Positions 1,264-17,980 of a stretch of 21,839 bases of DNA are shown here, one piece after another (position 1 is the first letter of the stretch; every line of letters begins with the position of its first letter). This stretch comes from a virus: IMG/VR virus record IMGVR_UViG_3300020001_000010, positions 1 through 21,839 of that record, one strand, 5' to 3'. A model generated the notes under the pieces. It did no database searches, was not told the origin of the DNA, and saw nothing but the letters and a program-made list of their open reading frames with translations. The position numbers were made by a program, and so were the translations under genes.

Positions 1264-1268
1264 CTCCC

Positions 1269-1308
1269 TCCTGCCCACCCCTGTCCGAGCCCGACGGAAT
1301 GGGCAGGA
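1269..1308 (+). promoter_or_regulatory. Late-type regulatory motif, copy 1
   Basis: TCCTGCC (1269-1275), a 19-nt spacer, CGGAAT (1295-1300), then GGG and CAGGA (1304-1308). It begins five bases after a stop codon and ends shortly before the GGAGG ribosome binding site (1312-1316) and the ATG of the capsid protease (1324). It matches four other copies in the window. It is probably a phage late promoter or activator site. The pattern is seen directly; the function is inferred. Confidence 0.6.
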
Positions 1309-1323
1309 CACGGAGGTGGGCGG

Positions 1324-3624
1324 ATGCTGCAGAAGTACGCCAGCGCGAAGGTGCTGGACAAGTTCGTGGTCCCGCACCAGGCAGGTACGAAGCTGCTGCG
1401 ACGGATGGCTCACCGAGCCCACTTCGACTACGAGCCCCGGCCGGGCTACCTGTACATCCGGTCGCGGATGATCTCGTCACGCTGCAACGACAATTATGAC
1501 GAGTTTCCGGCTGACGAGATCAAGAAGGCTTACCAGACGTTCGTCGGTAAGCCCGTCTTCGTCAACCACAGCAATGAGGATCACCGTCGCGCCCGAGGAG
1601 TGATCATCGCTGTCGCGCTGCACGAGGATCGCAACTCTGACGGCACTCCGGACACCTGGGTCGAGGGGCTGCACGAGGTGGACGCGGTCCGGTTCCCCAA
1701 GCTGGCCCAGGCCATCCTCGCCGGTCACGTGGACTGCACCTCGATGGGAACCGACGTGGCGTTCTCGGTCTGCCCGGTCTGTGACAACAAGGCCACCACC
1801 CCACTGGAGTACTGCCAGCACATCCCCGGCCAGAAGGGCCGTCGGATCTACCGCGCCGACCCGCACACCGGGCAGAAGGTCGGCGTGCTGGTCCGGGAGA
1901 AGTGCTACGGACTGTCGTTCTTCGAGAACTCTCTACTGGTGGAGCCCCCGGCGGACCCGACGGCAGTGTTCACCGGGGTGGACGACCGTGGCATGAAGAT
2001 GGCCAAGCTCGACCCGGAGGCTCCCAAGGGGCATCCGACCCCCAAGCGCGCGGACGCTCGTCGTCGCCGGCAGGAGCTGGAGAAGGCCGCGTCGTTGCGA
2101 CTGGTGGTCGCCGAGGGCGAGGAGGGCGGGCCGCCACCGAACCACCTTCCGCAGAAGGACCCGGTGGTGCGTGAGGAGGCGGCCTGCGCGACCTGCGGCG
2201 GGGCGATCTTCCACTCCAAGAACGGCGACGTGTGGATCCATTCTGAGCAGACCGGTGGCGGGCTGCCGCACCAGGCGAACCCCGGCGAGGAGGGGTACGA
2301 CGGCGCCAGCGGCCAGCGGATCCCGCAGAGCAAGGCGTACGAGAACCATCGCGACGCCATGCTGAAGGGCGCACCTTTCGCCGGGTATGACGACTTCGAG
2401 GACTGCGAGCAGCAAAACGAAGACAAAGGCGACAGTGCGGCATATTGCGGGGAGATCAAGCACCGCACTGAGGACTCCCACAAGGAATCCAGCCACCAGA
2501 CCGAGATGGACGACTACCACGGCCGCCGGCAGGTCGACCTCGAGGATCCGATCGACCTGAAGGCACACCTGATGCAGACCCACGGCTGGACGCCGGAGGA
2601 CTTCCACCAGCACGCCCTGGAGGAGCACCACCCGGCGCTCGGGATGACCGACGGCACCAGCCGGCCGTACACGGTCGCTGAGGTCCAGCACATCCACGGC
2701 TTCGAGCACACCCCGGCCGGCGGCGGCCATGACTTCCCGGAGGCACGCGTGGAGAACGGCATGCACAGGCACGCGGCGACGCAGGTGGAGGCGAAGCCAC
2801 GGCATGCCGACCCCGCCGAGCACCCAGCGTTCAAGGCGTTGGGGATGCATCCGGGCAACATCGTCGGGCACTGGGACATGGCTAGTGAAGAGGAGAAGGG
2901 CCAGGGCAAGAACTGGTACCCGGACGCGCACCACATCGCCAAGGCGATCGCGGGTGGTGACGCGCACAAGGGTGCGCACGTGTTGGCCACCTACAGTGCC
3001 CAGACGCCGTGGCCGATCAACATGCACAACGCGTCCCGGTCGTTTCGGGAAGGTAAGGCGGTCGGCGGTAAAGGTGGCGGCGTGATGGCATCCGGCCAGC
3101 AGCGCGACTCAGCGCAGCGAGTCATGAACGGCGAGAACGGCCAGGACGTACTCAAGGGACACAAGATCCGGGCGTTCGCGCATCTGATCGAGCACGGCGG
3201 CGACAAGGACCCGAGCAACCCCCGGGTGGTGGTGGACCGGCACGCGCTGTCGGTCGCGGCCGGCCGTCGGCTCTCGGACGCGGAGACCGGCCCAGCCCAG
3301 CAGGCGATGGCCAACCACCACTACTACAAGCACACCGAGGACATGTATCACCAGGCCGCGCAGCACATCAACAAGCGAGACGGCAGGACTGGTGACGACG
3401 AGGTGAAGCCGCACGAGGTGCAGGCCGCCACCTGGCTGGTGCAGCAGCGCTCGAACCAGAAGGACGACGCCGAGTCCGGTGAGGCGGCCGGCAAGGGGCG
3501 AGTGAACTCCTTCGAGAAGGGCAAGCGGGAATGGCTTGGGCACGCCCGTGAGCACTACGACGGGCTGGAGGGCAACATGCACATGGCCGGCCTGATCGAC
3601 CCCCGGAAGGTCACCAGTGCGTAG
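1324..3624 (+). CDS. Capsid maturation protease with C-terminal glycosylase-like domain
   Basis: A 766-residue protein with GGAGG eight bases before ATG 1324. Residues 1-220 resemble phage prohead proteases: a conserved NH (H82) and the segment CTSMGTD (S140) are likely catalytic, followed by a probable zinc site (C150, C153, C164, H166) as in other prohead proteases. Processing of head proteins during capsid assembly is the expected role, and the scaffold and capsid genes follow. Residues about 221-500 are a charged, His-rich linker with a second possible zinc motif (C288, C291). Residues about 500-710 form a separate domain with NWYPDA, SAQTPWPIN (558-566), LKGHKIRAF and VVVDRHALSV (635-644). 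Its motif order resembles HhH-GPD DNA glycosylases (see findings). The protein is much longer than a usual prohead protease. Confidence 0.85.
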   Translation: MLQKYASAKVLDKFVVPHQAGTKLLRRMAHRAHFDYEPRPGYLYIRSRMISSRCNDNYDEFPADEIKKAYQTFVGKPVFVNHSNEDHRRARGVIIAVALHEDRNSDGTPDTWVEGLHEVDAVRFPKLAQAILAGHVDCTSMGTDVAFSVCPVCDNKATTPLEYCQHIPGQKGRRIYRADPHTGQKVGVLVREKCYGLSFFENSLLVEPPADPTAVFTGVDDRGMKMAKLDPEAPKGHPTPKRADARRRRQELEKAASLRLVVAEGEEGGPPPNHLPQKDPVVREEAACATCGGAIFHSKNGDVWIHSEQTGGGLPHQANPGEEGYDGASGQRIPQSKAYENHRDAMLKGAPFAGYDDFEDCEQQNEDKGDSAAYCGEIKHRTEDSHKESSHQTEMDDYHGRRQVDLEDPIDLKAHLMQTHGWTPEDFHQHALEEHHPALGMTDGTSRPYTVAEVQHIHGFEHTPAGGGHDFPEARVENGMHRHAATQVEAKPRHADPAEHPAFKALGMHPGNIVGHWDMASEEEKGQGKNWYPDAHHIAKAIAGGDAHKGAHVLATYSAQTPWPINMHNASRSFREGKAVGGKGGGVMASGQQRDSAQRVMNGENGQDVLKGHKIRAFAHLIEHGGDKDPSNPRVVVDRHALSVAAGRRLSDAETGPAQQAMANHHYYKHTEDMYHQAAQHINKRDGRTGDDEVKPHEVQAATWLVQQRSNQKDDAESGEAAGKGRVNSFEKGKREWLGHAREHYDGLEGNMHMAGLIDPRKVTSA

Positions 3625-4705
3625 CTTCGCGTACGGCGAGACGGTGGCCCCCGCGCAGGTGGACACGCTCCGCGACGAGGAGTGCCCGATCTGCGGCGCG
3701 GACTCCGACGCGTTCGACGGCGACCGGTGCGAGGAGTGCGGATTCGTGTTGCCCCCGTCGTTCGTCCGGGACCCAGACCTGGAGATGGCCCGCAAGCTGG
3801 ACCTGCGCGGCGACCAGGAGCCCACCATCCCGGAGATCAGCCCGCAGGAGGCTGCGCCCGGCGGCCCGATGCCCGGCGTCGTCAGTCCGGACCAGGTGGC
3901 CGAGGACGGCTCGGTACCGGGGGAGGAGCAGGACGAGGACACCGTCGATCCCGACCAGCTGCCGGAGGACTCAGAGGACCCGGAGGCCGAAGAGGGCGCG
4001 GTCGACGAGCAGGGCAACCCGGTCGACCCGGAGGCGGCCACCGGCCACGTCAATCAGGGCGGGGAGTCGTTCACGCCCGACCCGAACGACCCGGAGCAGC
4101 CCGGCGAGCCGGAGGAGCCGGAGACGGTCGACCCGGAGGCCCTGGATGAGAACGGCGAGCCCCTGGAGGCCGAGGACGGCACTCAGGAGCCCGAGGAGGT
4201 CCCCGGAGCCGGCGACGGTACCGAGGACGACTCCGGGGTGGTGGAGGGCGACGTGGAGTCCCTGGGGGACGAGGAGGAAGCCCCGGGAGACGAGGCGGGC
4301 ATCGTCGAGGGGCAGCAGCCGACGACGGTCGGCGAGCCGCCACCACCAGGGACGCCAGGAGACGAGAGCCCGGACCTGGTCTGCCCGGCCTGCGGGTTCG
4401 AGGCCCCGGCAGCCCGGCCGACGAGCACCAATATGGACGACCCGATGAGCCCCGACGCCAGCGGTGACGGGATGCTGGCCGGCGACGCTTGCCCGAACTG
4501 TGGACAGGCCACCCTGCTGCCTATCGGGGATGTCGAGGAGATGCAGGCCGAGGCGCCGGTGGAGGAGGGCGAAGCTCCTGAGGACGACGCTGGGGGAGCG
4601 CCGGAGGAAGAGGCAGAGGCTCCCGAAGAGGGTCAGGAAGAGCCGGAAGCGGACGATCAGGATGAAGAGGACGACGGCAAGAAGAAGCCGCCGCCGTTCG
4701 GGTAG
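3617..4705 (+). CDS. Highly acidic protein with two zinc ribbons
   Basis: GTG 3617 overlaps the protease end by 8 nt and has GGAAGG (3605-3610) at good spacing. The 362-residue product has an N-terminal CxxC pair set (C23, C26, C38, C41) and a second set near residue 256 (C256, C259, C292, C295). Very Asp/Glu/Pro-rich linkers lie between and after them, and the end is basic-proline (KKKPPPFG). The composition suggests a mostly disordered, strongly negative protein. Its position between the protease and the scaffold candidate fits a head-assembly or core role, but the family is not recognised. It could instead be an internal DNA-mimic-like protein; that is speculation. Confidence 0.8.
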   Translation: MRSFAYGETVAPAQVDTLRDEECPICGADSDAFDGDRCEECGFVLPPSFVRDPDLEMARKLDLRGDQEPTIPEISPQEAAPGGPMPGVVSPDQVAEDGSVPGEEQDEDTVDPDQLPEDSEDPEAEEGAVDEQGNPVDPEAATGHVNQGGESFTPDPNDPEQPGEPEEPETVDPEALDENGEPLEAEDGTQEPEEVPGAGDGTEDDSGVVEGDVESLGDEEEAPGDEAGIVEGQQPTTVGEPPPPGTPGDESPDLVCPACGFEAPAARPTSTNMDDPMSPDASGDGMLAGDACPNCGQATLLPIGDVEEMQAEAPVEEGEAPEDDAGGAPEEEAEAPEEGQEEPEADDQDEEDDGKKKPPPFG

Positions 4706-4749
4706 GAGCAGCTCAGGACGGGTACCCGTGGCGCGACGAAGGGAATCAC

Positions 4750-4836
4750 ATACGCTACGGGTACTGGGGTGGCGGCGGACTACTCGGTCTGCTGCTGATT
4801 GTCCTGATCGTCCTGCTGATCGCGCACGTCATCTGA
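4750..4836 (+). CDS. Possible 28-codon membrane micro-protein with non-standard start
   Basis: In the gap after the acidic gene one frame encodes a Tyr/Gly-rich lead followed by GGGGLLGLLLIVLIVLLI, a clear transmembrane helix, and stops with TGA at 4834-4836. No ATG, GTG or TTG lies in this frame between the preceding in-frame stop (4663-4665) and the helix. The best start by position is ATA 4750, with AAGGGA (4739-4744) five bases upstream. Small Gly-rich one-helix proteins occur in phages, so a real gene with an altered start, an AUA start, or an inactivated copy are all possible. The late-type motif begins 10 nt after its stop. Confidence 0.35.
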   Translation: MRYGYWGGGGLLGLLLIVLIVLLIAHVI

Positions 4837-4846
4837 CCGGCGCGTC

Positions 4847-4886
4847 TCCTGTCCCGCACCCGCCCGCACCTGCGGAACTAGCAGGA
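4847..4886 (+). promoter_or_regulatory. Late-type regulatory motif, copy 2
   Basis: TCCTGTC (4847-4853), a 19-nt spacer, CGGAAC (4873-4878), TAG, then CAGGA (4882-4886). It lies in the 225-nt gap before the scaffold candidate, whose ATG is 52 nt downstream. The spacing is identical to copies 1, 4 and 5. Likely a late promoter or activator site, by inference from recurrence and position. Confidence 0.6.
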
Positions 4887-4930
4887 GGGCCTCGCTCAGG
4901 GGCCTGGGCATTCGAAGGGACAGAGTAGAG

Positions 4931-5866
4931 ATGCCCAAGTCGAACCAGGGCGGTAGCCGCCCCGTCATCGCGGCCGTACAGGGGCAGCAGAAGCACATCG
5001 CGGCGCTGGAGAAGTTCGCCACCGCGCAGGCCAACGAGATCGAGATCCTGAAGCTCAAGCTCGCGTACGTGGCGAGGCTGGCCGGGATCTCCCCGCAGAT
5101 GGACGCGATCGACCAGCGGGTCGCCGCGCTGAACCAGAAGTCGGCTGACGTGATGAACCCGGGCCAGCCGGTCCCGGATCCGGCGGACCAGGCTCCGAGC
5201 GAGACCACTGAGCAGGCGGTCACCCCGGAGACCTACGACGACCCGCGCCGGCCGGGCCAGACTCCCGGGTCAGTGCAGGACCTGCCGGCAGACGCCACCA
5301 CCACCGCCCTGGAGCCGGGCACCACGCTGCCCACCTCTCCGTACGGCGACATGGTGGACGTGACCGCGCCGGTGGCCGGTACCGAGACCCACGTGCCGAA
5401 CGAGCAGACCCGGATCGAGACCGACGTGCGTGTCGGGGATCCGATGAACCAGGACACCGCGTTCGCCTGGAACCCGAACATGGGGCCAAACCAGAGCAAC
5501 GGCCAGGCCCCGGCGAGTGGCGCTCAGGGCCGCGCGGCGTCGGTCCAGGACCTGGCCCGGGTCCGGACGATGGCGTCGATCAGGTTGGCCCGGCTGCGGA
5601 TCCAGGCGGGTATCGCGCAGGGCGACGACTTGTCGGTGGCCGGCGCGATCGAGGGCTCCGACCTGCCGGACGCCGCGATCGCGCACGAGATCCAGACCCT
5701 GGCCAGCGTGCAGAAGGTCGCGGCCCGACAGCCGCGCCCGGCCGGCCTGGTGCCTCGTTCGGCCAGCGCCCAGCGTGGCACGCCGTCGCTGGCGACCGGC
5801 ATCACGGCGTTCCGCAACCCGACCACGGCGGAGACGATCGAGGACTCTTCGGACATCTTCATCTGA
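4931..5866 (+). CDS. Probable capsid scaffolding protein
   Basis: ATG 4931 follows GAAGGGA about ten bases upstream. The 311-residue product has an N-terminal helical region (about 12-72) with heptad-like Leu/Ile/Ala spacing. A long Pro/Asp/Thr-rich segment follows (about 75-200), then a second helical domain (about 206-272) and a short C-terminal tail rich in Ser/Thr/Asp. This helix, disordered linker, helix layout and the position between protease and capsid genes fit a scaffolding protein that would be cleaved by the upstream protease. No diagnostic motif was recognised. It is followed by a strong terminator. Confidence 0.65.
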   Translation: MPKSNQGGSRPVIAAVQGQQKHIAALEKFATAQANEIEILKLKLAYVARLAGISPQMDAIDQRVAALNQKSADVMNPGQPVPDPADQAPSETTEQAVTPETYDDPRRPGQTPGSVQDLPADATTTALEPGTTLPTSPYGDMVDVTAPVAGTETHVPNEQTRIETDVRVGDPMNQDTAFAWNPNMGPNQSNGQAPASGAQGRAASVQDLARVRTMASIRLARLRIQAGIAQGDDLSVAGAIEGSDLPDAAIAHEIQTLASVQKVAARQPRPAGLVPRSASAQRGTPSLATGITAFRNPTTAETIEDSSDIFI

Positions 5867-5878
5867 TCCCCCGACAGC

Positions 5879-5916
5879 GGCCCCGTCCACCATCTCCCCC
5901 TTCGGTGGACGGGGCC
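5879..5916 (+). terminator. Rho-independent-type terminator after scaffold candidate
   Basis: A perfect 13-bp inverted repeat, GGCCCCGTCCACC (5879-5891) and its complement (5904-5916), with a 12-nt pyrimidine-rich loop. It starts 12 nt after the stop codon. No long T-run follows, as is common in GC-rich actinobacterial phages. The late-type motif begins four bases downstream, so one unit ends here and the next begins. Confidence 0.8.
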
Positions 5917-5919
5917 GCC

Positions 5920-5960
5920 TCCTGTCCAAGGCCCGGTGAGAGCCCGGAACAGACGTAGGA
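5920..5960 (+). promoter_or_regulatory. Late-type regulatory motif, copy 3
   Basis: TCCTGTC (5920-5926), an 18-nt spacer, CGGAAC (5945-5950), then AGACGTAGGA, which departs slightly from CAGGA. It sits directly after a terminator and 74 nt before the decoration-protein candidate and the major capsid gene. The spacer is one base shorter than in the other four copies. Probably a late promoter driving the most abundant head proteins; this is inference. Confidence 0.6.
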
Positions 5961-6024
5961 GAGATGGCTCGACGGATGACCCGGAGAGCCCCAGAGGCTC
6001 TGCACACGAGAGGGGCTAAATCGT

Positions 6025-6525
6025 ATGTTGCGGGTCAAAGCCAATAACAGCTACATCAAGCGGACTATCCGCGAGCTGTACGGATTCCACCAAGCCACCC
6101 CCAAGAGCGTCTACCTCGACGCCGCGTGGGACCGCTCCGTGGCGATCTACCCGGGCATGGTGATGTCCCGGACTCTCGGCGAGAACGTCACCCTCTACGG
6201 CGCGTCCCCGCTGAACGTGGCGTACGGACTGGCCGACCTGTACGTCGGCGGCGACGGCATCGACGAGCCGCTGGACGTGGGTCTGAACGTGTTCGCCGTC
6301 TGGGTGCTGAACCGGGACGCGGAGTTCGAGATCCTTGCCCCCGCGTTCGATACGACGGCCACGTTCACGGACACCGGCGACGGCACCGAGGTGCTGCTCA
6401 CCGCGCTCACCACCGGCGCCGGTCGGGGCAAGCTCACGCCCACCGGCGCCAACTCCGGCAACGCGATCGCGCGACTGCTCAAGGTCAACTCGGCCACCAA
6501 GATCACCATCGGCGGACTCCGCTAA
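6025..6525 (+). CDS. Probable capsid decoration/stabilisation protein
   Basis: A 166-residue protein with GAGGGG nine to ten bases before ATG 6025. It lies directly upstream of the major capsid gene and downstream of a terminator and late-type motif, where many phages encode a head decoration protein. The sequence is beta-rich with a central segment YPGMVMSRTLGENVTLYGAS and a Gly/Thr-rich C-terminal half. No cysteine, membrane segment or enzyme motif is seen. The call rests on position and composition and is moderately secure; another small virion protein is possible. Confidence 0.6.
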   Translation: MLRVKANNSYIKRTIRELYGFHQATPKSVYLDAAWDRSVAIYPGMVMSRTLGENVTLYGASPLNVAYGLADLYVGGDGIDEPLDVGLNVFAVWVLNRDAEFEILAPAFDTTATFTDTGDGTEVLLTALTTGAGRGKLTPTGANSGNAIARLLKVNSATKITIGGLR

Positions 6526-6552
6526 GACCGCTGGACAGGAGAGGGAATCAGC

Positions 6553-7533
6553 ATGAGCACTGCGCTCGCCCCCAGCGGCCTTCAGGGCAAGGTCGCGATC
6601 AAGAGCGATGACTATGTCAGCGCGATCGAGGCCCGCCGGGCCAAGGGACCACTGGACCACGATCAGAAGGTCCGTCGGCTGGCGATGGTCCTGTCGGACG
6701 AGGTGTCCGGCATCAAGCGACTCGGCGTCGGCATGGTCGGTCCGATCCAGCTGAAGCTGCGCTACCAGGGCATCGTCCGCAACGTGTTGGTCGAGGACCC
6801 GGTCACGCCGGGCACCCCGGTCGAATATGACGTTTGGGATGATCTGGGTCAGGCGTACTTGATGTCGTCCACTGACGGCGAGGTCCGGGTGACCCCGTTC
6901 GAGGGCAAGCGGATGCCCGTGAGGTTCTTCCGCATCGCCTCCCAGCCGACGATCCGCAAGGAGGACCTCTACTACCTCCGGATCAACGCGGTCGAGCAGG
7001 TCCAGGACGAGACCAAGCAGGCGATCCTCAAGCAGGAGGACAACCGGCTGCTGACGATCCTGCAGGCCGCGATCACCGACTACGCGACCCGGCCGGACCA
7101 CGTCGTCACCCCGAACCACACGATCACCGAGGCGTCCGGCTATCTGACCCCGGGCTCGCTGTACTCGGCGGTCGCGATGACCGACCTGCACGAGTTGCAG
7201 AGCGCGCGGATCCTGATCAACCCGTTCGACTACCGCGATATGTACAGGTGGGACATCAATCAGACCGGTTGGGCGTTTAAGGACCGAGTTGTCGCTGGCG
7301 AGACCATCACCAGCTTCGGCGAGTTCCAGATCCAGCGGTCGATCATCGTCCCGCAGGGCAAGATCTACCTCACCCCGGAGCCGAACTTTCTGGGCGTCTT
7401 CCCGGTGCTCTACAGCCTGGACGTGGAGGAGAACCACATGGTGGCCTCCTTCATGAAGGGGTGGGTGTTCGATGAAATGGTTAATATGACAATACTTAAT
7501 CCGCGTGGGCTGGCACTTATTAACAAGGTTTAG
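6553..7533 (+). CDS. Major capsid protein (HK97-type fold expected)
   Basis: ATG 6553 follows AGGAGAGGGA. The 326-residue product has an N-terminal helical arm, a central segment with VRFFRIASQPTIRKEDLYY, and a C-terminal part with PEPNFLGVFPVLYSLDVEE and MVNMTILNPRGLALI. This layout is familiar from major capsid proteins of large tailed phages. Position agrees: protease, scaffold, decoration, then capsid, with a very strong terminator directly after. No N-terminal delta domain is fused, which fits a separate scaffold. A different capsid-associated protein is unlikely given size and context. Confidence 0.8.
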   Translation: MSTALAPSGLQGKVAIKSDDYVSAIEARRAKGPLDHDQKVRRLAMVLSDEVSGIKRLGVGMVGPIQLKLRYQGIVRNVLVEDPVTPGTPVEYDVWDDLGQAYLMSSTDGEVRVTPFEGKRMPVRFFRIASQPTIRKEDLYYLRINAVEQVQDETKQAILKQEDNRLLTILQAAITDYATRPDHVVTPNHTITEASGYLTPGSLYSAVAMTDLHELQSARILINPFDYRDMYRWDINQTGWAFKDRVVAGETITSFGEFQIQRSIIVPQGKIYLTPEPNFLGVFPVLYSLDVEENHMVASFMKGWVFDEMVNMTILNPRGLALINKV

Positions 7534-7622
7534 CGAGGGTAGCGTACTCGCCGAACTGGCGTCCCTTCGGGATCTCTCCGTGACACAGGAAGTAGTAGCC
7601 TGAGACCCGTACGAACCCGCTG

Positions 7623-7668
7623 ATACGACAGAGCCCCCGAGATTCCGCACTCGGGGGCTCTGTCGTAT
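7623..7668. terminator. Strong bidirectional terminator after the major capsid gene
   Basis: A perfect 19-bp inverted repeat, left arm 7623-7641 and right arm 7650-7668, with an 8-nt loop and a GC-rich core (GAGCCCCCGAG). It lies between the plus-strand capsid gene and the minus-strand operon that runs towards it, so it can stop transcription from both sides. It is the left insulator of the non-structural island. Confidence 0.85.
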
Positions 7669-7782
7669 GTGGTCTCGGGACGCTTAGTCCCAGTGGTTGT
7701 CGCCGCGCATGAACCCACCCCCCTCGGTACCGTTCTAACCGATCATACCGGCATAGATGAGGTCAGACAGTCTTTCTCCGGC

Positions 7783-7923: not shown

Positions 7924-7946
7924 CTGGCGGTTTCCTCCCATGGTGA

Positions 7947-9032: not shown

Positions 9033-9043
9033 GACTTCGACTC

Positions 9044-9664
9044 CTACGGCTTGTAGACGTTCCGGGCGCCCTTGTCCATCCGCAGTCGACCACGGTGGTC
9101 GAACTTCGGCCGGTTCTCCGAGTTGGGGTCGGAGTACTGCTCCAGGGCCTCGATCTGCAGGCCGTCGGGGGTGTTCGTGATCATCGCGACGGCGACGGAA
9201 TAGATGCGGTCGTTGTTGTTCGCGTTGGCGGCATCGATGGTGACCACCGTGCCGTCGCCGTTGTCCACCTTGGTGGAGACCTGGTACCGGTGGAACGAGC
9301 CGGTGCTGTTCTTCTGCGCGCTGTAGGCGACCAGGACGATCTTGGACCAGCGCGGGTCGGCCTTGATCAGGATGGTCTCGTCCGCACGCCCGGTGCTGGC
9401 GTCCGGCCGAGTCACGTCGCCGAGGTGCTTGATGGTGCCACCGAAGGCAGAGTCCTGCGGGATACGCGTCGGGCCGGTCTCGGTGCCGAAGGTGGCCACG
9501 TGGACCTCCTCGCCTTCTGGCGTGCGAGCGATGGCGAACAGGTCGTAGTCGGTGGCCGACGGCCAGCTGACGGTGGCGGTGATGACGTGGCCTTTGTCGA
9601 TGCTGACGCGGTCGCCCTTGTTCAGGTTGACGGCGCCGGTCTTCTTGCCGAAGTCCACAGGCAT
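9044..9664 (-). CDS. TerD-family (tellurium-resistance-like) protein
   Basis: A 206-residue protein that opens the minus operon. TerD-like features are the N-terminal NLNKGDRVSID (13-23), the acidic segment WPSATDYDLFAIA (34-46), and a later region with HLGD (80-83), R88-D89, and DETILIKADP (95-104). In the family, Asp-rich segments of this kind bind calcium. TerD-domain proteins are linked to stress response, tellurite resistance and phage-related functions, and occur in many large phages, where the role is not settled. Start ATG at 9664 has a purine-rich GAAAGAGAG upstream. The gene lies about 40 nt from a divergent promoter region. Confidence 0.85.
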   Translation of the reverse strand: MPVDFGKKTGAVNLNKGDRVSIDKGHVITATVSWPSATDYDLFAIARTPEGEEVHVATFGTETGPTRIPQDSAFGGTIKHLGDVTRPDASTGRADETILIKADPRWSKIVLVAYSAQKNSTGSFHRYQVSTKVDNGDGTVVTIDAANANNNDRIYSVAVAMITNTPDGLQIEALEQYSDPNSENRPKFDHRGRLRMDKGARNVYKP

Positions 9665-9705
9665 GTGGCTCTCTTTCGTTGGCGGATAGCTGACGGTCTC
9701 CTGCT

Positions 9706-9734
9706 ATCATACATCAGGATGCTTGGAGACACAC
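9706..9734 (-). promoter_or_regulatory. Promoter of the minus-strand TerD operon
   Basis: On the minus strand GTGTGT (9734-9729), a 17-nt spacer and TATGAT (9711-9706) form a sigma70-like promoter about 40 nt before the TerD-like start. The spacer shares CAAG and TCCTG with the promoters at 11122 and 14718, at nearly the same places. A GGTCTCC (9695-9701) and GGAGAC (9725-9730) inverted pair brackets the -10 and reaches the -35. Confidence 0.6.
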
Positions 9735-9751
9735 CCGCCAGAGAGAATCGA

Positions 9752-10469
9752 GAGATCATACGATGATGGGCTACTCGCACGCCCGTTCGCCTAGACCAGT
9801 AGCTGCTCAGCTCAGAGGAAGCATTGACACGCTCCCTCTTCGCTTCCAGTCGAAGGTCGACGCCTCCGACCAAGATGGGTGTTGGTATTGGACGGGCGCT
9901 AAGAACCGGCTTGGATACGGACAGATCGACAAGGTTGGCGCTCACCGCGTTGCGTATTGGCTACATACTGGAGTCGATCCAGGAGACCGCGAGGTCTGCC
10001 ACCAGTGCGACAACCCTCCATGCGTACGACCGAGTCACCTGTTTCTCGGCACTCATGCGGAGAACATGGCCGACAGCGCTGCGAAAGGAAGATCCACTTC
10101 TGTCAAAAAAGTGACGATGGCCCAGGTGGATGAAATTCGCCACCTGTATGGAACCGGCGCGACGACAACAGAGATCGCCCCATTGTTCCGTATTTCTGCC
10201 TCTCAAGTCGCTCGCATCTGCCGAGGATTGAGCCGCTCTACCACTCCTGTCCAGGCTCCCTGGGAGCGCGCCGGCAAGAAGAGGTGGGGACTCAAGCTGA
10301 ACGACGAGCAGGTGGCGGAGATTCGCCGCCAGTACAGGTCGACCCCTGCTACACAGCGCTCGCTCGCTGCTGCGTATGGAGTTTCTCAACGATTGGTCTT
10401 CGACATTATCCACGACAATGAGCGCATTCAGGACACTAGGGAGATTGTCAAATGATGTCCTACTCGCAC
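9752..10469 (+). repeat. 29-bp imperfect direct repeats flanking the HNH gene
   Basis: Positions 9752-9780 and 10441-10469 align without gaps with 22 of 29 identical bases. Each has GAGAT, six variable bases, ATGATG, two variable bases and CTACTCGCAC or TACTCGCAC in register. Copy 1 is the ribosome binding site and first codons of the HNH gene; copy 2 is the same part of the membrane hydrolase gene. This suggests that the HNH gene inserted at, and duplicated, the hydrolase gene start. Confidence 0.7.
9763..10455 (+). CDS. HNH homing endonuclease with two HTH domains
   Basis: A 230-residue protein. Residues 40-110 carry an HNH_3-type nuclease: CWYWTG, GAHRVAYW (H61), CHQCDNPPCVRPSHLFLGTH (C79, H80, C82, C87, H92) and NMADSAAKGR. 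Two helix-turn-helix units follow, about 117-155 (QVDEIRHLYGTG then ITTEIA-like and SASQVARI) and about 178-215 (DEQVAEIRRQYRS then SLAAAYGVSQR), which would give site recognition. It is a free-standing homing endonuclease. The first residues (MMGYSH) mirror those of the next gene (MMSYSH). Codons are less GC-biased than in neighbours, consistent with recent transfer. It overlaps the next start by four bases (ATGA). Confidence 0.9.
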   Translation: MMGYSHARSPRPVAAQLRGSIDTLPLRFQSKVDASDQDGCWYWTGAKNRLGYGQIDKVGAHRVAYWLHTGVDPGDREVCHQCDNPPCVRPSHLFLGTHAENMADSAAKGRSTSVKKVTMAQVDEIRHLYGTGATTTEIAPLFRISASQVARICRGLSRSTTPVQAPWERAGKKRWGLKLNDEQVAEIRRQYRSTPATQRSLAAAYGVSQRLVFDIIHDNERIQDTREIVK

Positions 10470-11120: not shown

Positions 11121-11121
11121 C

Positions 11122-11150
11122 TTGTGTACCAAGGATTCCTGTGGCATTCT
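11122..11150 (+). promoter_or_regulatory. Island promoter with TTGTGT -35
   Basis: TTGTGT (11122-11127), a 17-nt spacer and CATTCT (11145-11150), directly after the hydrolase stop. The spacer contains CAAG and TTCCTG, as in the promoters at 14718 and 9734 (minus). The -10 is weak, which may mean that an activator is needed. It drives the group of small genes from 11182 onwards. Confidence 0.55.
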
Positions 11151-11152
11151 GA

Positions 11153-11176
11153 GGTCTCCGCCAGAGACAGGAGACC
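11153..11176 (+). promoter_or_regulatory. Inverted repeat over transcription start, possible operator
   Basis: GGTCTCC (11153-11159) and GGAGACC (11170-11176) flank the ten bases GCCAGAGACA. The left arm falls near the predicted transcription start and the right arm includes the GGAG ribosome binding site of the gene at 11182. It could be a repressor operator or, if fully transcribed, a hairpin hiding the ribosome binding site. A similar GGGTCT/AGACCC pair around GCCAGAG lies below the 14718 promoter. Confidence 0.45.
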
Positions 11177-11181
11177 GCAAC

Positions 11182-11558: not shown

Positions 11559-11568
11559 GGAGCTGCGG

Positions 11569-11754: not shown

Positions 11755-11765
11755 GAGGAGGCGCC

Positions 11766-12050: not shown

Positions 12051-12226
12051 ACGCTCCGGAGGAGACCTCGTGTGAGCACGAGCGTCGAGGGCGTCTCGGC
12101 TACAAGCAGGAGCTGTACTGCCTGATCTGCCAGGCGCGGTTGGACGAAGGCCTGCCGAGTTTCGGCATCGAGCTGGACCCGGCGCTGGAGCTTGATGACT
12201 ACGGGTTGTTGAGGAGGAAGCCATGA
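12047..12226 (+). CDS. Small protein with CxH...CxxC metal-binding motif
   Basis: A 59-residue protein started by ATG 12047 within the previous stop and ending within the next start (ATGA). CEH (9-11) and CLIC (about 25-28) form a likely zinc site in the first half; the second half is acidic. Phage proteins of this size and pattern are common and mostly uncharacterised. It directly precedes, and is translationally coupled with, the nucleotidyltransferase gene. Confidence 0.7.
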   Translation: MNAPEETSCEHERRGRLGYKQELYCLICQARLDEGLPSFGIELDPALELDDYGLLRRKP

Positions 12227-14094
12227 GCGGAGTCACTACGGACGATGTGGTCGAGGCACTACAGGAGCTGGCCAGGCGGATCGGCCCGATGGTGTCAATC
12301 ACGCCGGACTCGCCGAAGCAGACGATCGCCGTGAAGGGCATGATGCTGCGGGTCCTGGCGGGGTCCGAGGCGCATGGCACCGCCATCGCCGGCCAAGGCG
12401 ACCGCGACGAGATGGGTATCTGCGTGGAGCCACCGGAGACCGTCATCGGCCTGCAGAAGTTTGAGCAGTACGCGTTCCGCACCCAGCCGGAGGGAGTCTG
12501 CTCCGGGCCCGGCGACCTGGACCTGACCGTCTACGGACTGAGGAAGTACGCGGCGCTGGCCGCGCAGGGCAACCCGACCATCCTGACGCCGCTGTTCGTC
12601 GGCGACGAGTTTGTCCTGTATACGAACGACTTCGGGCTGCAGCTGCGCGAGCGCCGGGACATGTTCCTCTCCCAGCAGGCCGGCGCCCGGTTCAAGGGCT
12701 ACCTGCACTCGCAGCGGCTCGGCCTGATGGGGAAGCGCTCCGGCGGCACCCGCAACCAGGGACGCGCCGACATCCGCGCGAAGTACGGGTTCGACTGTTA
12801 CCTCGACGATACCGAGTTCCTCACTCGTCGTGGATGGCAGCGCTACGACGACATCGTCGATGATGAAGCGATCGGCACGTTCAGTACTGAGACTGGTGCT
12901 GTTGAGTTCCAGGAGCCGACGGCACGACTCGCCAAGACCTACACGGGGCCAATCCATTATTTCCGACACCGATACACCTCGTGCGCAGTCACGCCAGGTC
13001 ATCAGATGTGGACCTCGCCGGTGAATCGAGGCCCCTGCGGCCGGATCGGTAACGGATACCGGCCAGAGGTAGCCAGGTGGGACTTCCGCCCAGCGGTCGA
13101 GCTGGAACGCATCCACCACGTGCGCATCGCTGGTGCGCCACGAGAGACTGAGTATCCAATCTCAGACCCTAAGCTCGCACTCTACGGATGTTACCTAAGC
13201 GAAGGCTTCGTCGTGAAGCGCCGCAACGACGGCACGGCATCCGTGCTCTCCATGACGCAGCAAGTTGGCGGACGAATGGAGAGTGCTCTTGCGCTCGCCG
13301 GATCTGAGTTCCCGATGCGGACGTACACCTACACACGGGCTGACGGCGAGCGCTCCCGACCATGCACGTACACGATCTACAACCTGCCAGACCGTGAATT
13401 GGCAACGACGATGGATGTCGAGTGTGGACAAGGCTCACGTGGAAAGAAACTCCCCTCGTGGGCATTCGACTTGTCTGCGAGGCAGGCGAAGATTCTGCTG
13501 TCCGCCATGATGTCTGGCGATGGAACTCAGTGTCGCGGAGGCTGGCAGGTCTACTACTCAACATCTCGGCAACTCGCAGGAGATGTTCAGGCCCTCGCCG
13601 TTATAGCCGGTCGCCGGGCGAACATGTGGGGGCCGTATGCCCCGAAAGGCGTGTACCAGGTGATGGTCCAGGAGCCTGGTGGCCAGGTCCAGGCGGTCCA
13701 GATGCGCAGCAATCATCGCGTGGAGAGCGTCACGAACGGCCGGGTTGTTTGCTTCGAGGTTCCGAACGGCACGCTCGTGACTCGCAGAGAGGGGAGGGTG
13801 GCGATGCAGGGCAATTGCAAGTTCGCGACCCACATGGTCCGGCTCGGCGTCCAGGGCGTCGAGCTGCTCCGCACAGGCTCGATCAGCATGCCGGTGGGCG
13901 AGCCTGAGCTGGCCTGGCTGCGCGACCTGCGGCAGGGCCACCACACCAAGGAGGAGGCGCTGGATCGCGCCGAGGAGCTAGAGACCGAGATCGACGCGCT
14001 CATGCTGACCACCGACCTGCCGGAGCACCCGGACTGGGAGTCGATCAACAGCTGGCTGGCCAGCGTCCACGTCCGGTACTGGGGGCTGTCGTGA
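12223..14094 (+). CDS. RlaP-like nucleotidyltransferase with an in-frame intein
   Basis: A 623-residue precursor. GAGGAGG precedes ATG 12223. The N-extein (1-191) has a polymerase-beta-type nucleotidyltransferase signature, LAGSEAHGTAIAGQGDRDEM (G47, S48, D60, D62), then LDLTVYGLRKYAALAAQGNP (99-118), which fits the predicted nucleotidyltransferases of the RNA-repair-associated RlaP/PF10127 type. The C-extein (532-623) continues with CKFATHMVRLGVQGVELL and a helical end. Splicing out residues 192-531 would restore a contiguous KYGFD-CKFATHMVRL segment and give a 283-residue enzyme. The substrate in phage is unknown. Neighbours include a glycosylase-like protein, suggesting a nucleic-acid repair or modification setting. 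Confidence 0.85.
   Translation: MSGVTTDDVVEALQELARRIGPMVSITPDSPKQTIAVKGMMLRVLAGSEAHGTAIAGQGDRDEMGICVEPPETVIGLQKFEQYAFRTQPEGVCSGPGDLDLTVYGLRKYAALAAQGNPTILTPLFVGDEFVLYTNDFGLQLRERRDMFLSQQAGARFKGYLHSQRLGLMGKRSGGTRNQGRADIRAKYGFDCYLDDTEFLTRRGWQRYDDIVDDEAIGTFSTETGAVEFQEPTARLAKTYTGPIHYFRHRYTSCAVTPGHQMWTSPVNRGPCGRIGNGYRPEVARWDFRPAVELERIHHVRIAGAPRETEYPISDPKLALYGCYLSEGFVVKRRNDGTASVLSMTQQVGGRMESALALAGSEFPMRTYTYTRADGERSRPCTYTIYNLPDRELATTMDVECGQGSRGKKLPSWAFDLSARQAKILLSAMMSGDGTQCRGGWQVYYSTSRQLAGDVQALAVIAGRRANMWGPYAPKGVYQVMVQEPGGQVQAVQMRSNHRVESVTNGRVVCFEVPNGTLVTRREGRVAMQGNCKFATHMVRLGVQGVELLRTGSISMPVGEPELAWLRDLRQGHHTKEEALDRAEELETEIDALMLTTDLPEHPDWESINSWLASVHVRYWGLS
12796..13815 (+). mobile_element. LAGLIDADG intein (340 residues)
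   Basis: The intein runs from C192 to N531 of the nucleotidyltransferase. It starts CYLDDTEFLTRRGW, as expected for block A. Block B is CAVTPGHQMW (T257, H260). Two LAGLIDADG-type helices are LALYGCYLSEGFV (318-330) and ILLSAMMSGDGT (424-435), the latter with the acidic D433. The end is VVCFEVPNGTL...GRVAMQGN, followed by the +1 cysteine. The penultimate residue is Gly rather than the usual His; I recall this variant in other phage inteins. The endonuclease would target intein-free alleles. Codon choice is less GC-rich than in the exteins. Confidence 0.9.
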
Positions 14095-14261
14095 GGGGCT
14101 TCTCGTCCAACGACGAGGCGCTGCTGGGCGAGTACGCCGGCCTGGCCGTCGACCTGCACGAGGTCGGCGAGTACGGCGCCTAGTACCCCGGCGAGTACGA
14201 GGAGAAGGAGCAGCGCCGCGACGCCGTCAAGTCCGAGATCCTCCGGCGGATGCGCTCATGA
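14091..14261 (+). pseudogene. Small gene interrupted by an in-frame amber codon
   Basis: GTG 14091 overlaps the previous stop (GTGA). The frame reads 30 codons to TAG at 14181-14183, then continues in the same frame with 25 well-biased sense codons (ending KSEILRRMRS) to TGA 14259-14261, which overlaps the next start (ATGA). Both junctions match the coupling style of neighbouring genes, so the original gene was probably 55 residues plus this codon. TAG is a normal stop for many genes here, so general recoding is unlikely. Nonsense mutation, sequencing error or local readthrough remain possible. The product is acidic and helical. Confidence 0.6.
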
Positions 14262-14743
14262 GGCCCCTGATCCTCGGCGAGGCGCCGAGCAAGAGCGGGG
14301 ACCGGTACTGGCAGTTTCCGCTGTCTGGTGCCGTCGGCCAGCGGCTGTGTGAGTGGGCGGGACTGGACCCCTGGCCTGGCGGTACGCGCTACGGGCGCTA
14401 CTACTGGCCACTCAGCGAGGCGTTCGAGCTGCGCAACCTGCTGGAGCGTTACCCCGGCGCCCAGGGGCGCGGTGCGGCCCTCCCGGCAGCCTTGGCGCGG
14501 CCAGCGTGGGAGGAACTGCTCCCGGCGCTCTCCGGCCGCGTAGTGATCCTGTTGGGGTCTCGACTGCGGGAGCTGCGCGGCGGCCAGACCTACTACGACT
14601 GGGTCTCCTACCCGGGCGGGAAGCAGATCGTGGCCATTCCGCACCCGTCCGGCCTGAACCGGATGTACGACGCGGCGGGGCATGTCGAGAAGGCGTCCGC
14701 CGTCCTCCGTGAGGCGCTTGTGCTACAAGAATCCCTGGGGTAA
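14258..14743 (+). CDS. Uracil-DNA-glycosylase-superfamily-like protein
   Basis: A 161-residue protein. Motif 1 is LILGEAPSKSGD (GEAPS at 7-11), followed by PLSGAVGQRLCEWAGL. A hydrophobic strand VVILLGSRLREL lies mid-protein, and motif 2 is PHPSGLNRMY (128-137). This layout matches the UDG superfamily, in which GE[AP]PG and HPS segments contact the base and the DNA. It lacks an FxxC-type iron-sulphur cysteine pattern. The catalytic polar residue typical of active UDGs cannot be assigned with confidence, so the substrate is open. It overlaps the amber-broken frame by four bases and its TAA is part of the -10 of the next promoter. Confidence 0.75.
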   Translation: MRPLILGEAPSKSGDRYWQFPLSGAVGQRLCEWAGLDPWPGGTRYGRYYWPLSEAFELRNLLERYPGAQGRGAALPAALARPAWEELLPALSGRVVILLGSRLRELRGGQTYYDWVSYPGGKQIVAIPHPSGLNRMYDAAGHVEKASAVLREALVLQESLG

Positions 14744-14746
14744 TAT
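14718..14746 (+). promoter_or_regulatory. Island promoter TTGTGC-N17-TAATAT
   Basis: TTGTGC (14718-14723), a 17-nt spacer with CAAG and CCCTG, and TAATAT (14741-14746). It lies inside the end of the glycosylase-like gene, with the TAA stop forming part of the -10. It is the best sigma70-like promoter in the window and matches the promoters at 11122 and 9734 (minus) inside the spacer as well. It drives the two small genes at 14784 and 15104. Confidence 0.7.
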
Positions 14747-14766: not shown

Positions 14767-14783
14767 GCACCAAGGAGATCCAA

Positions 14784-15107: not shown

Positions 15108-15271
15108 CCGGCGGGTGGGTCCAGGTCATCGTCGAGACCGTCGCGCAGCCCCGGGAGTTCGTGCTTACCGAGTACGACAACCAGGAGGCCGCCGACCGTG
15201 AGGTCGCCTGGCTGCTGGCCAACCTGCCCGACGGCGTCACCAACGCGTACGCGCACCGCCGCCACTACTGA
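15104..15271 (+). CDS. Small hypothetical protein
   Basis: A 55-residue protein from GTG 15104 overlapping the preceding stop (GTGA). GTG 15101 is an alternative. It has a beta strand (WVQVIVETV), a charged turn and a helix (QEAADREVAWLLANLP), followed by a His/Arg-rich end. No family recognised. It is the last gene of the island, two bases before a strong terminator. Confidence 0.7.
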   Translation: MTGGWVQVIVETVAQPREFVLTEYDNQEAADREVAWLLANLPDGVTNAYAHRRHY

Positions 15272-15273
15272 GC

Positions 15274-15316
15274 GCAAGAGGACCCCGGGTGTGAGGGAGA
15301 CCCGGGGTCCTCTTGC
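15274..15316 (+). terminator. Strong terminator closing the non-structural island
   Basis: A perfect 17-bp inverted repeat, arms 15274-15290 and 15300-15316, with a 9-nt loop. The core is GAGGACCCCGGGT and its complement. The right arm ends in CTCTTGC and lacks a U-run. It insulates the island from the tail genes, whose late-type motif begins 15 nt downstream. Confidence 0.85.
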
Positions 15317-15330
15317 CTGCATGTGTACGC

Positions 15331-15370
15331 TCCTGTCGGCCCCTTAGCGAGCCCAGCGGAATGGTCAGCA
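15331..15370 (+). promoter_or_regulatory. Late-type regulatory motif, copy 4
   Basis: TCCTGTC (15331-15337), a 19-nt spacer, CGGAAT (15357-15362), GGT and CAGCA (15366-15370). It lies between the island terminator and the first tail-module gene (ATG 15401) and would restart late transcription after the island. Confidence 0.6.
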
Positions 15371-15400
15371 GCAGTACTGACCCGCGAGAGGGGCGAGACC

Positions 15401-15931
15401 ATGCCTGAGGTCGAGCAGGTGGCAGCGCGCAACATGATGCCAGGGCCGACAGTCCTGAGCCTGGACCTCAACGGGCGGCTGTCCGTGGAGTGGATGGGCG
15501 CCAAGGACCCCGACGGGAACGACGTGAAGTACGTCCCCGAGGAGATCGTCAAGTCGGTCCAGTTCAAGCGCGCCCTGCGACTGGGAATCCTGCAAGTCGA
15601 GGAGGACCCGGACACCTACATCGACAAGCAGAGCGAGGCATGGACCCGGCGGTACGAGCAGAACCAGGCGGACGCGCTCGCGGCGATCGACTACCTCCCG
15701 CAGAACGACTACCTCGGTCTGGAGTGTGTCGGCCCGTCCCGCGAGGGATCTGGCGGCGCCTGCGGAGTGATGGTCCCGCTCAAGGCGTCACTGGTGAAGA
15801 TCACCCCGCCGCTGTGTGACAAGCACGTCCAGTTGGCCCCCCAGTACATGTCGGAGCCGGGAGTCGAGGAGCGGCCCGGCGACGACGGCACCCCCGTCAT
15901 GGTGCCCGTCACCCGCTGGCGGCGCATGTGA
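15401..15931 (+). CDS. Unknown protein, first of the neck/tail module
   Basis: A 176-residue protein from ATG 15401, with GAGGGGCGAG upstream. The frame is open from 15323 but the late-type motif lies there, so the internal ATG is preferred. Residues 1-100 are mixed and include KYVPEEIVKSVQF. A possible zinc site lies in the C-terminal half (C109, C121, C139, H142). Its place at the head of the tail module suggests a virion or head-tail connection protein, but no family is recognised. Confidence 0.7.
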   Translation: MPEVEQVAARNMMPGPTVLSLDLNGRLSVEWMGAKDPDGNDVKYVPEEIVKSVQFKRALRLGILQVEEDPDTYIDKQSEAWTRRYEQNQADALAAIDYLPQNDYLGLECVGPSREGSGGACGVMVPLKASLVKITPPLCDKHVQLAPQYMSEPGVEERPGDDGTPVMVPVTRWRRM

Positions 15932-15947
15932 GCGAGAGGACCCGATA

Positions 15948-16442
15948 GTGGGCTACCAGGAGAACCCAGACCACGTGCCGGACCCTACGGCAGTGTCCGG
16001 CACGCTGGATACCAGCGGCATCTACGGCGGCGGCGCGCACGAGAGCATCCGTGGCACCACGGAGGTGTTCAACGTCGCCGACCGGCTCTCGGCCCCCAGT
16101 GAGCCTGACGAGTCGATCGCCGACACCCCCGACGACGAGGTCGTGGTGGACGCGAGCCGTGAGCCCGACCTCGCCGGTCCGGTAGCTGACCCGGCGGAGC
16201 AGGAGAACCCCAGCCCGTTCCCCGAGGGCACCCTGGATGTCTCCGACGTGCTCACCGACGAAGAGATCGCCCAACGGTCGGATCCGGACCGCCCGGACCC
16301 GCTGGCGGCGGAGTTCGACCCGTCCGAGCACACCGTCGCCGAGGTGAACACCTACCTGGGCTCAGCCAGTGAGGACGAGCGCGCGCGGGTACTGGCGGCC
16401 GAGCAGGCCGACCGGAACCGCAAGGGCATCACCGGCGAGTAG
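15948..16442 (+). CDS. Acidic virion-type protein with C-terminal NRKGI motif
   Basis: GTG 15948 has AGAGGA about nine bases upstream and follows the previous stop by 16 nt. The 164-residue product is acidic and low in complexity (Asp/Pro/Glu) until residues 128-161, where HTVAEVNTYLGSASEDERAR and LAAEQADRNRKGI form a small helical motif. I have seen this motif at the ends of phage head or neck proteins, where it resembles a SAP/HeH-type fold. A head-tail or capsid accessory role is likely; the precise one is unknown. Confidence 0.7.
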   Translation: MGYQENPDHVPDPTAVSGTLDTSGIYGGGAHESIRGTTEVFNVADRLSAPSEPDESIADTPDDEVVVDASREPDLAGPVADPAEQENPSPFPEGTLDVSDVLTDEEIAQRSDPDRPDPLAAEFDPSEHTVAEVNTYLGSASEDERARVLAAEQADRNRKGITGE

Positions 16443-16468
16443 ACAGACCCAGCAGAGGAGTCAGCGCA

Positions 16469-17830
16469 GTGACTGGACCAGACACCACCGGCGTCGTCGG
16501 CGAGCCGGGGGCGGCCCCGATCGGTACCGCCGCCACGTCCGCGAAGGACGTGGACACCAGCACCGCCGCCGGAGCCGCGTACGGCAGCCTCACCGCGCGG
16601 CCGGGGCCGCCGCTGGAGGCCGTCACGAAGGACACAGAGGCCACCTACGGCGGCCGGGCGGTCAATGACCCAACCGCCGTCCAGCCGCTACTGGCGAGGA
16701 CCCTGGAAACCAACAACGGCGGTGGCTCGCCCATCGTCCAAGCCAACCCCGTGTACCGGGCGCCGGCCGTCCTGCTGTCCCCTGCGGTCACGTACGACAC
16801 CACCTGGACCGACCGACCCATCTCGGACGGTCTGACGCACACGCCGTCGGCGAACACCGTCGGCGGAACGCTGGAGACCGGGAACGTCGGCGCTGTGCCG
16901 GCCCCGGTGAGTCACAACACGCCGCCGGCTCCCTCCGCCCCGACCGTCGCTGCTGCCTCGCGGGGCGTCCAGGTCACGTGGGTAGCGCCGACACCGGTCT
17001 CTGGAGCGCCAACGCTCGGGTTCATGATCCAGTCCGACACCGGTGGCGTCCGGTACGCCAACGCCGACCAGGTCACGAAGTTCTTCGACACGGTGACCCC
17101 CGGTCAGGCGTACAAGTTCCGGGTGGCCGCCCGCAACTACAACGGCTGGGGCGCCTTCTCGGCCCTGTCGCTGGCCGCGACGCCGTACAACCCCGACGAG
17201 ACCGACGTGGGCAAGCCGGCGGCGGGAATCACCGTCGACAACCGGGCAAACCCGATCTACCGGCCGGACGGCACCGTGGTGGCTGGCACCGGCGGCTGGC
17301 CAACGACCCCGAAGACGGTGGCCGCCGTGCAGGCGTCCGCCACCTCCGCCACCGTCACCTGGACCGCGCCGGACTACGGGCTGCCGCTGACCAGCTACGT
17401 GGTGACCGCGTCCACCGGCCAGACCGCGACCGTCTCGGGCACCACGCTCACTGCGACGATCACCGGACTGACCACCGGCACGCCTGTGACGTTCACCGTC
17501 AAGGCCGTGAACACCAAGGGGAACTTCACCTCAGTGGCCAGCAACAGCGTCACCCCTGGCACCCCTTCGACGCCGAAGACGGTCGCGGCGGCGATCGCCA
17601 GCTCGACCTCCGCGACGGTCACCTGGGCGGCCCCAGACTTCGGTCTGCCGCTGACCGGCTACACCGTCACGGCATCTACAGGCGTCACTCCGGTCACCGT
17701 GTCCGGCACCACCCTGACCGCGACCTACCCGGGCCTGACCACCGGGGTCGCGGTGACCTTCACCGTCACGGCGACCAACTCCATCGGCAGCTTCACCTCC
17801 GCGCCGAGCAACTCCATCACCCCGGCGTAG
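16469..17830 (+). CDS. Virion protein with three fibronectin type III domains
   Basis: A 453-residue protein from GTG 16469 with AGAGGAG upstream. The first 150 residues are Gly/Ala/Thr-rich and extended. Three fibronectin type III domains follow at about 152-238, 277-363 and 366-453, each with the W in VTW and the closing SxxxxxTP strand. Domains 2 and 3 are near-duplicates (PKTVAA, SATVTW, APDxGLPLTxY, SGTTLTAT, GLTTG). Such domains in phage virions are thought to bind carbohydrates or cell surfaces, or to decorate the capsid or tail. It ends a transcription unit (hairpin at 17891). Confidence 0.85.
   Translation: MTGPDTTGVVGEPGAAPIGTAATSAKDVDTSTAAGAAYGSLTARPGPPLEAVTKDTEATYGGRAVNDPTAVQPLLARTLETNNGGGSPIVQANPVYRAPAVLLSPAVTYDTTWTDRPISDGLTHTPSANTVGGTLETGNVGAVPAPVSHNTPPAPSAPTVAAASRGVQVTWVAPTPVSGAPTLGFMIQSDTGGVRYANADQVTKFFDTVTPGQAYKFRVAARNYNGWGAFSALSLAATPYNPDETDVGKPAAGITVDNRANPIYRPDGTVVAGTGGWPTTPKTVAAVQASATSATVTWTAPDYGLPLTSYVVTASTGQTATVSGTTLTATITGLTTGTPVTFTVKAVNTKGNFTSVASNSVTPGTPSTPKTVAAAIASSTSATVTWAAPDFGLPLTGYTVTASTGVTPVTVSGTTLTATYPGLTTGVAVTFTVTATNSIGSFTSAPSNSITPA
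17309..17830 (+). repeat. Tandem repeat encoding two fibronectin type III domains
   Basis: Two copies of 264 nt (88 codons), starting at 17309 and 17573, encode domains 2 and 3 of the preceding protein. They keep similar codons at conserved positions (for example GGTCTGCCGCTGACC against GGGCTGCCGCTGACC), so the duplication is recent relative to domain 1. Confidence 0.75.
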
Positions 17831-17890
17831 GTCGTACGCTGGGTGCGCTCCACGCTCAGCGCGAGACCCAAAGACCAATCGAGCGCACCA

Positions 17891-17916
17891 TCGGCCCCGT
17901 CTCCGGACGGGGCCGA
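17891..17916 (+). terminator. Terminator after the fibronectin-domain gene
   Basis: A perfect 11-bp inverted repeat, TCGGCCCCGTC (17891-17901) and its complement (17906-17916), with a four-base loop TCCG. It lies 60 nt after the stop and 25 nt before late-type motif copy 5. It is followed by a short CACTTTGAG stretch. The core resembles that of the scaffold terminator at 5879. Confidence 0.8.
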
Positions 17917-17940
17917 CCACTTTGAGCGGCCCCTCTCGTC

Positions 17941-17980
17941 TCCTGTCGGCTCCCTGCCCAGGGCGCCTGAATAAGCAGGA
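17941..17980 (+). promoter_or_regulatory. Late-type regulatory motif, copy 5
   Basis: TCCTGTC (17941-17947), a 19-nt spacer, CTGAAT (17967-17972), AAG and CAGGA (17976-17980). It is placed directly after a terminator and 24 nt before the GTG of the next structural gene, nearly the same distance as copy 1 to the protease gene. Confidence 0.6.

Follow-up and report, generated by a model that had tools for sequence, protein, structure and literature searches.

The virus record IMGVR_UViG_3300020001_000010 (a complete IMG/VR record of 21,839 bases and 67% G+C, analyzed over its whole length and referred to here as the window) carries five copies of a two-box element, TCCTGYC and CKGAAY at a nearly constant spacing, each of which is very probably a phage-specific late promoter unlike the promoters of the host. 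A late promoter class had been proposed in an initial annotation of this DNA, and the present comparison supports it computationally through fixed spacing, a single orientation, placement before the first gene of virion and lysis operons and mutual exclusion with host-type promoters. The major head protein encoded in the window (phrog_2522) shares 58-61% identity with its counterparts in Mycobacterium phages Myrna, Phabba and HyRo and Gordonia phages Skog and Stormageddon, and 80-93% with those of 80 uncultured relatives. The window is a piece of a Bxz1/Myrna-like actinobacteriophage genome.

All five start positions given in the initial annotation, on the plus strand in each case, were recovered (Table 1), as was the spacer of 19 nucleotides (nt) in four copies and 18 nt in one. 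The two-box part of the annotated pattern also stood, but the N3-CAGGA tail appended to it is exact in only three copies (1269, 4847 and 17941); the copy at 15331 has CAGCA and that at 5920 has no tail. Structural stretches (approximately bp 1-7533 and 15401-21839) flank an island of small non-structural genes. Using our own gene calls, which come from a simple codon-usage script and make gap edges approximate, each of the five plus-strand gaps of at least 60 nt in the structural modules contains one copy, while the island gaps (7534-7782, 9659-9762, 11121-11181 and 14184-14257) contain none, as had been claimed. The chance expectation of the five-copy pattern is 0.01 based on dinucleotide shuffles, and the reversed pattern has no match in the window. 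With this expectation and reversed controls near zero, chance or base composition was rejected as the cause. Because the pattern was derived from the same five copies, independent support must come from relatives.

The element in related phages

A comparison of the DNA 5' of the phrog_2783 gene among relatives revealed this two-box arrangement again, but with another box 2. The pattern TSCTGTC-N17-22-GAANNGG occurs 56 times on the forward strand and once on the reverse strand in 1.06 Mb of sequence from relatives, and is absent from the same DNA reversed. Among 64 distinct sites, 58 have a spacer of exactly 20 nt, and a C sits four bases before GAA, giving the family consensus TSCTGTC-N16-C-N3-GAAGGGGTGRRRR. 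Four relatives (G001-G004, 154-160 kb) were then scanned at a score above 15 with models from which the scanned genome had been excluded. The coding strands of G001, G002, G003 and G004 contain 17, 16, 14 and 15 sites, respectively, against 1 site on the opposite strand and 0 on reversed sequence. The initial annotation had suggested looking for the element in related phages and had named an even spread of matches through coding sequence as evidence against it; a related form was found at 14-17 sites in each of these four whole genomes, and no such spread was observed.

The closest relative contig, G016 (L006/L285; major capsid protein 93% identical), has the element at 5/5 syntenic places. 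Between G016 and the window, identity is 33/35 in box 1 and 25/30 in box 2 (83-94%), compared to 50/93 in the spacers (54%) and 37/100 in the 20 nt upstream (37%). G016 carries further copies, and the consensus of this lineage is near YCCTGTC-N18/19-CGGAATAGGCAGGA. As the exact window motif was found once among the 80 relatives and TCCTGTC-N18-20-CGGAAT-N3-CAGGA has no match in IMG/VR, the window version is lineage-specific. When set in the register of the relatives, the window copies also have a C before box 2, which indicates that they are a diverged form of one element. Many of the matches listed by an IMG/VR scan with CTGTC-N19-21-GAAGGGGTGR were estimated to be due to chance, and only contigs of known relatives were used from it.

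Weaker versions precede gp73, gp87, gp96, gp110, gp115 and gp239 of Myrna, gp146 of Skog and gp88, gp89, gp94 and gp96 of HyRo. Statistical support in these phages is modest; Myrna has 9 forward sites above 10 bits versus 4, 3 and 2 in controls. Members of a third lineage (L055, L061, L064, L071, L074 and L079) carry CCCCAGAAGGAATAGCAGGA in the syntenic position. This sequence is found once per 20 kb, with no accompanying TSCTGTC. De novo dyad counting in the isolates and this third lineage returned nothing above reversed controls.

Placement of the sites and of host-type promoters

Nearly all sites in relatives lie 41-131 nt 5' of a start codon (commonest 45-65 nt), in most cases that of a head, tail or lysis gene, with a few assigned starts farther away, and some overlap the stop codon of the preceding gene as TGATGTC. 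The G004 genes 3' of sites include those for endolysin, maturation protease, tail sheath, baseplate and a 1606-amino acid (aa) ParB/RNA ligase protein. For all five window positions, two or more of G001-G004 carry a site in front of the ortholog of the gene that follows: for the gene after copy 3 this applies to each of the four, and a site is also present in relatives 5' of the ortholog of the copy 1 gene. Among late-region genes with an upstream gap of at least 40 nt, 52/86 have a site, compared to 3/213 in the early region and 4/499 for shorter gaps. As the late interval was set from the span of the sites, this late/early contrast is partly circular.

Unlike the site contrast, the distribution of host-type promoters was judged against reversed controls and is not circular. 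The pattern TTGNNN-N16-18-TANNNT occurs 85 times in early-region gaps against 11 in reversed controls, and 5 times against 5 in late-region gaps. At the -10 position of the element itself, TANNNT is found in 0/62 relative sites and 0/5 window copies, and a scan of the window for sigma70-type sites returned 0. These results agree with the initial annotation that the boxes do not resemble host sigma70 -35 and -10 boxes. Two host-type promoter candidates were noticed in the island at 11122-11150 and approximately 14715-14745 (TTGTGY-N17-CATTCT/TAATAT, with a downstream GCCAGAGAGAC-like sequence); these may represent an early promoter family of the phage.

The absence of TANNNT also bears on whether the element could instead modify transcription started by host sigmaA holoenzyme, either as the operator of a phage activator or as an antitermination site, with boxes that are not -35 and -10 contacts. 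Fixed spacing is possible for activator boxes too, and terminator-like hairpins often precede the sites. However, with TANNNT at the expected place in 0/62 sites and host-type promoters in late gaps at background, no sigmaA promoter is visible for such a site to act on, and antitermination sites usually occur once per transcript near the promoter rather than after each terminator. We regard this explanation as unlikely.

A role in the RNA of the 5' leader, whether as a site of processing, a structured regulator or a signal for translation, is less probable still. Box 2 is often immediately followed by the ribosome-binding site, the ATG then lying 45-47 nt past box 1, and TCCTG is complementary to CAGGA in three window copies. 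Neither G016 nor other lineages retain this pairing, no covarying stem over 66 sites exceeds the shuffled maximum, the minimum free energy (MFE) z-score of the element is only -0.79 and Rfam contains no match for it. Moreover, the distance to the start codon is variable, and the genes with a site are those that come first after a gap, not every gene. A TCCTG/CAGGA inverted repeat, whether operator or RNA hairpin, was rejected, given that other copies and relatives have lost the pairing and that no stem covaries; a known RNA family was rejected based on the Rfam result. Hairpin propensity is elevated upstream of the sites, where MFE is below -30 in 41% of cases versus 16% at other gene starts (p=2e-4). 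A spacer that is fixed in length with neither conserved sequence nor a covarying stem, a single orientation, placement before the first gene of operons and preceding hairpins are together more consistent with a promoter than with a signal in RNA or for translation. Separately, in the phrog_2783 leader of many relatives (L008, L052 and others), a conserved sequence resembling a hairpin or H-type pseudoknot (CCGTC..ATCGGACA..GACGG..TGTCCGAT) lies between the element and the start codon.

Proposed mechanism

If each copy is a late promoter, box 1 (TSCTGTC in the family, TCCTGYC in the window) would serve as the -35 element and box 2 as a GC-rich -10/initiation region, with the form C-N2/3-GGAAT-NN-GCAGGA in the window and C-N3-GAAGGGGTGRRRR (GAAGGGG) in most relatives. 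With box 1 as the -35 element, transcription is predicted to start approximately 34-38 nt past its first T, near the ribosome-binding site. Early genes would be left to the unmodified host holoenzyme, which would read ordinary TTG...TANNNT promoters. Once redirected by a phage factor of the early or middle class, the host RNA polymerase would initiate anew at each element and transcribe the head, tail and lysis operons.

Profile searches of relatives covered RNA polymerases and sigma region 2. Multisubunit RNA polymerase (PF00623) has no match in 13 relative records, while 14/14 control genomes were positive. The single-subunit T7-type polymerase profile (PF00940) also has no match in the 13 records, but the control genomes were equally silent. 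Sigma region 2 (PF04542) has no match in relatives, although a diverged form of this region could be missed. As neither a multisubunit polymerase nor sigma region 2 was detected, the most likely reader is the host core polymerase with a phage factor. WhiB was rejected as a general factor because it is present in only 6/13 records.

A candidate late factor

A 113-aa protein resembling sigma region 4 (sigma4-like) is encoded in 12/14 relative contigs of at least 98 kb, and a homolog in Myrna scored weakly. It is our leading guess for the late factor, though a tentative one. Pfam Sigma70_r4_2 (PF08281) matches above its cut-off in 4/16 genomes and below it in 6 others. The AlphaFold model has a pLDDT of 92, and credible Foldseek matches in the PDB are nearly all sigma region 4 or -35 binding domains (probability 0.99, target TM 0.7-0.8, E-value approximately 0.02-1), while VIA-align Z is 7.5 at best, under the level that excludes a common arrangement. 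The protein is homologous to the N-terminal third of phrog_2931 proteins such as Myrna gp201, and in three genomes its gene is preceded by a host-type promoter, TTGGCA-N17-TACNCT.

We give about an even chance to a different assignment, in which the element is a late promoter, the sigma4-like protein serves in packaging, as a terminase small subunit or otherwise, and the role of late factor falls to a different phage protein or to an alternative sigma of the host. A profile search of solved structures places terminase small subunits first (2cmp, E-value 0.007, a weak match covering the helix-turn-helix only). Furthermore, in G004 the gene stands first in a block that continues to a weak match to a terminase large subunit, and other helix-turn-helix-like proteins are encoded next to it. 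The Foldseek matches, nearly all to sigma region 4, and the Pfam matches above cut-off argue against a packaging role, tempered in the former case by the high E-values and the VIA-align score.

The open reading frame (ORF) of the sigma4-like protein in 12 phages (L255-L266) appears to begin with GTG, CTG, TTG, ATA or ATT and never with ATG, with a Shine-Dalgarno-like run upstream in several; these near-cognate starts resemble the rare-start control of infC. The gene belongs to a block conserved from uncultured relatives to Myrna, observed in L258 and as Myrna gp201-gp204: the sigma4-like protein, small protein X (phrog_2849), protein Y (phrog_2807) and phrog_2898. Protein X has a Cys-rich, zinc-ribbon-like tail in three phages, and its AlphaFold model (pLDDT 56) is too poor for use. 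It is conceivable, but doubtful, that this actinobacterial myophage family has a split sigma independent of that of T4, in which the GC-rich -10/initiation region (GGAAT/GAAGGGGTG) would be opened by host RNA polymerase only with a phage protein consisting of sigma region 4 alone and a partner.

Several observations weigh against the late promoter explanation. First, box 2 of the window is unlike that of most relatives, and with the model built from relatives no copies other than 3 and 4 exceed 10 bits. Second, the corresponding position in the third lineage (L071, L079 and others) is taken by an element of different appearance. Third, DNA that needs to melt is not usually GC-rich, as the conserved -10 region is. 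Finally, the candidate factor could equally well be a terminase small subunit.

Features of the window

The element copies, adjoining genes and terminator-like hairpins are listed in Table 1. Two further genes of the island were noted. At 12223-14094, a 623-aa nucleotidyltransferase (RlaP/phrog_388) appears to be split by an intein-like insert with first residues CYLDDTEFLTRRGW and end ...RVAMQGN|C, based on sequence and weak NCBIfam matches to intein-containing proteins. The ORF at 14258-14743 matches the uracil-DNA glycosylase superfamily (PF03167).

Table 1. Copies of the two-box element and neighbouring features in the window
Feature	Position (bp)	Strand	Description	Ortholog in G016
Copy 1	1269-1307	+	box 1 TCCTGCC (1269-1275); box 2 CGGAAT (1295-1300); tail GGGCAGGA	45035
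Predicted start site of copy 1	~1303-1307	+	predicted from box positions	
First operon gene after copy 1	1324-3624	+	phrog_2774/3842; also matches head maturation protease phrog_18299	
Copy 2	4847-4885	+	TCCTGTC-N19-CGGAAC-TAGCAGGA	48552
Gene after copy 2	4931-5866	+	311 aa; orthologs with own sites in G002, G003, G004	
Terminator-like hairpin	5877-5918	+	GC-rich; ends 1 nt 5' of copy 3; read from sequence	
Copy 3	5920-5958	+	TCCTGTC-N18-CGGAAC, without CAGGA tail	49606
Gene after copy 3	6025-6525	+	phrog_2783; major head protein gene (6553-7533) directly 3'	
Terminator-like hairpin	15274-15316	+	GC-rich, 17 bp; 14 nt 5' of copy 4; read from sequence	
Copy 4	15331-15369	+	TCCTGTC-N19-CGGAAT-GGTCAGCA	61196
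Gene after copy 4	15401-15931	+	orthologs with own sites in G002, G003	
Terminator-like hairpin	17891-17916	+	GC-rich, 11 bp; 5' of copy 5; read from sequence	
Copy 5	17941-17979	+	TCCTGTC-N19-CTGAAT-AAGCAGGA	64585
Gene after copy 5	17997-18629	+	orthologs with own sites in G002, G003, G004	

Comparison with known systems

Bxz1/Myrna-like phages are among the most often isolated large mycobacteriophages, and we found no published account of how they switch to virion gene expression. A search of the literature on cluster C/Bxz1 promoters and actinophage late promoter motifs, which left most subscription papers outside its reach, returned no description of the element. The element provides a concrete promoter map for this group, with start sites predicted to within a few bases and a candidate factor indicated. 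In addition, a GC-rich promoter closed to host sigma would be useful for strictly phage-dependent expression in actinobacteria.

The late promoters of T4 consist of an AT-rich -10 box alone, with a TATAAATA-like consensus and no -35 element, and depend on the sliding clamp. This consensus has no match in the window with up to one mismatch. T4 late transcription uses gp55 and gp33 as a "split sigma" on the host RNA polymerase, with gp33 a 112-residue mimic of sigma region 4 at the beta flap (PMC2988020). The system proposed here would be like that of T4 in having phage-specific late promoters for virion genes that differ from those of the host and are read by the host polymerase with phage proteins, and gp33 is close in size to the 113-aa protein. 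The two differ in that gp33 lacks sequence similarity to sigma factors, which the 113-aa protein has, and in that the present element has two boxes, fixed spacing and a GC-rich -10 region, with no homolog of gp55 or sigma region 2 found.

SPO1-like phages and Kayvirus have dedicated two-box middle and late promoters read by host core polymerase with a phage sigma. The element described here would similarly be a dedicated two-box class, but its boxes are different and no protein with sigma region 2 was detected in these actinophage genomes. Among actinobacteriophages, the Cluster K mycobacteriophages have Start-Associated Sequences, 13-bp elements (GGGATAGGAGCCC) located 3-7 bp from the start codon and proposed to act in translation (PMC3203893). 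These are likewise repeated in a single orientation 5' of many genes in an actinobacteriophage family (PMC3203893), whereas the element in this study spans approximately 40 bp, keeps a spacer of fixed length and is found mostly 45-65 nt from the start codon; GGGATAGGAGCCC has no match in the window with up to two mismatches. Late promoters specific to a phage are known from other systems, while a class with these two boxes and a GC-rich -10 region appears to be new.

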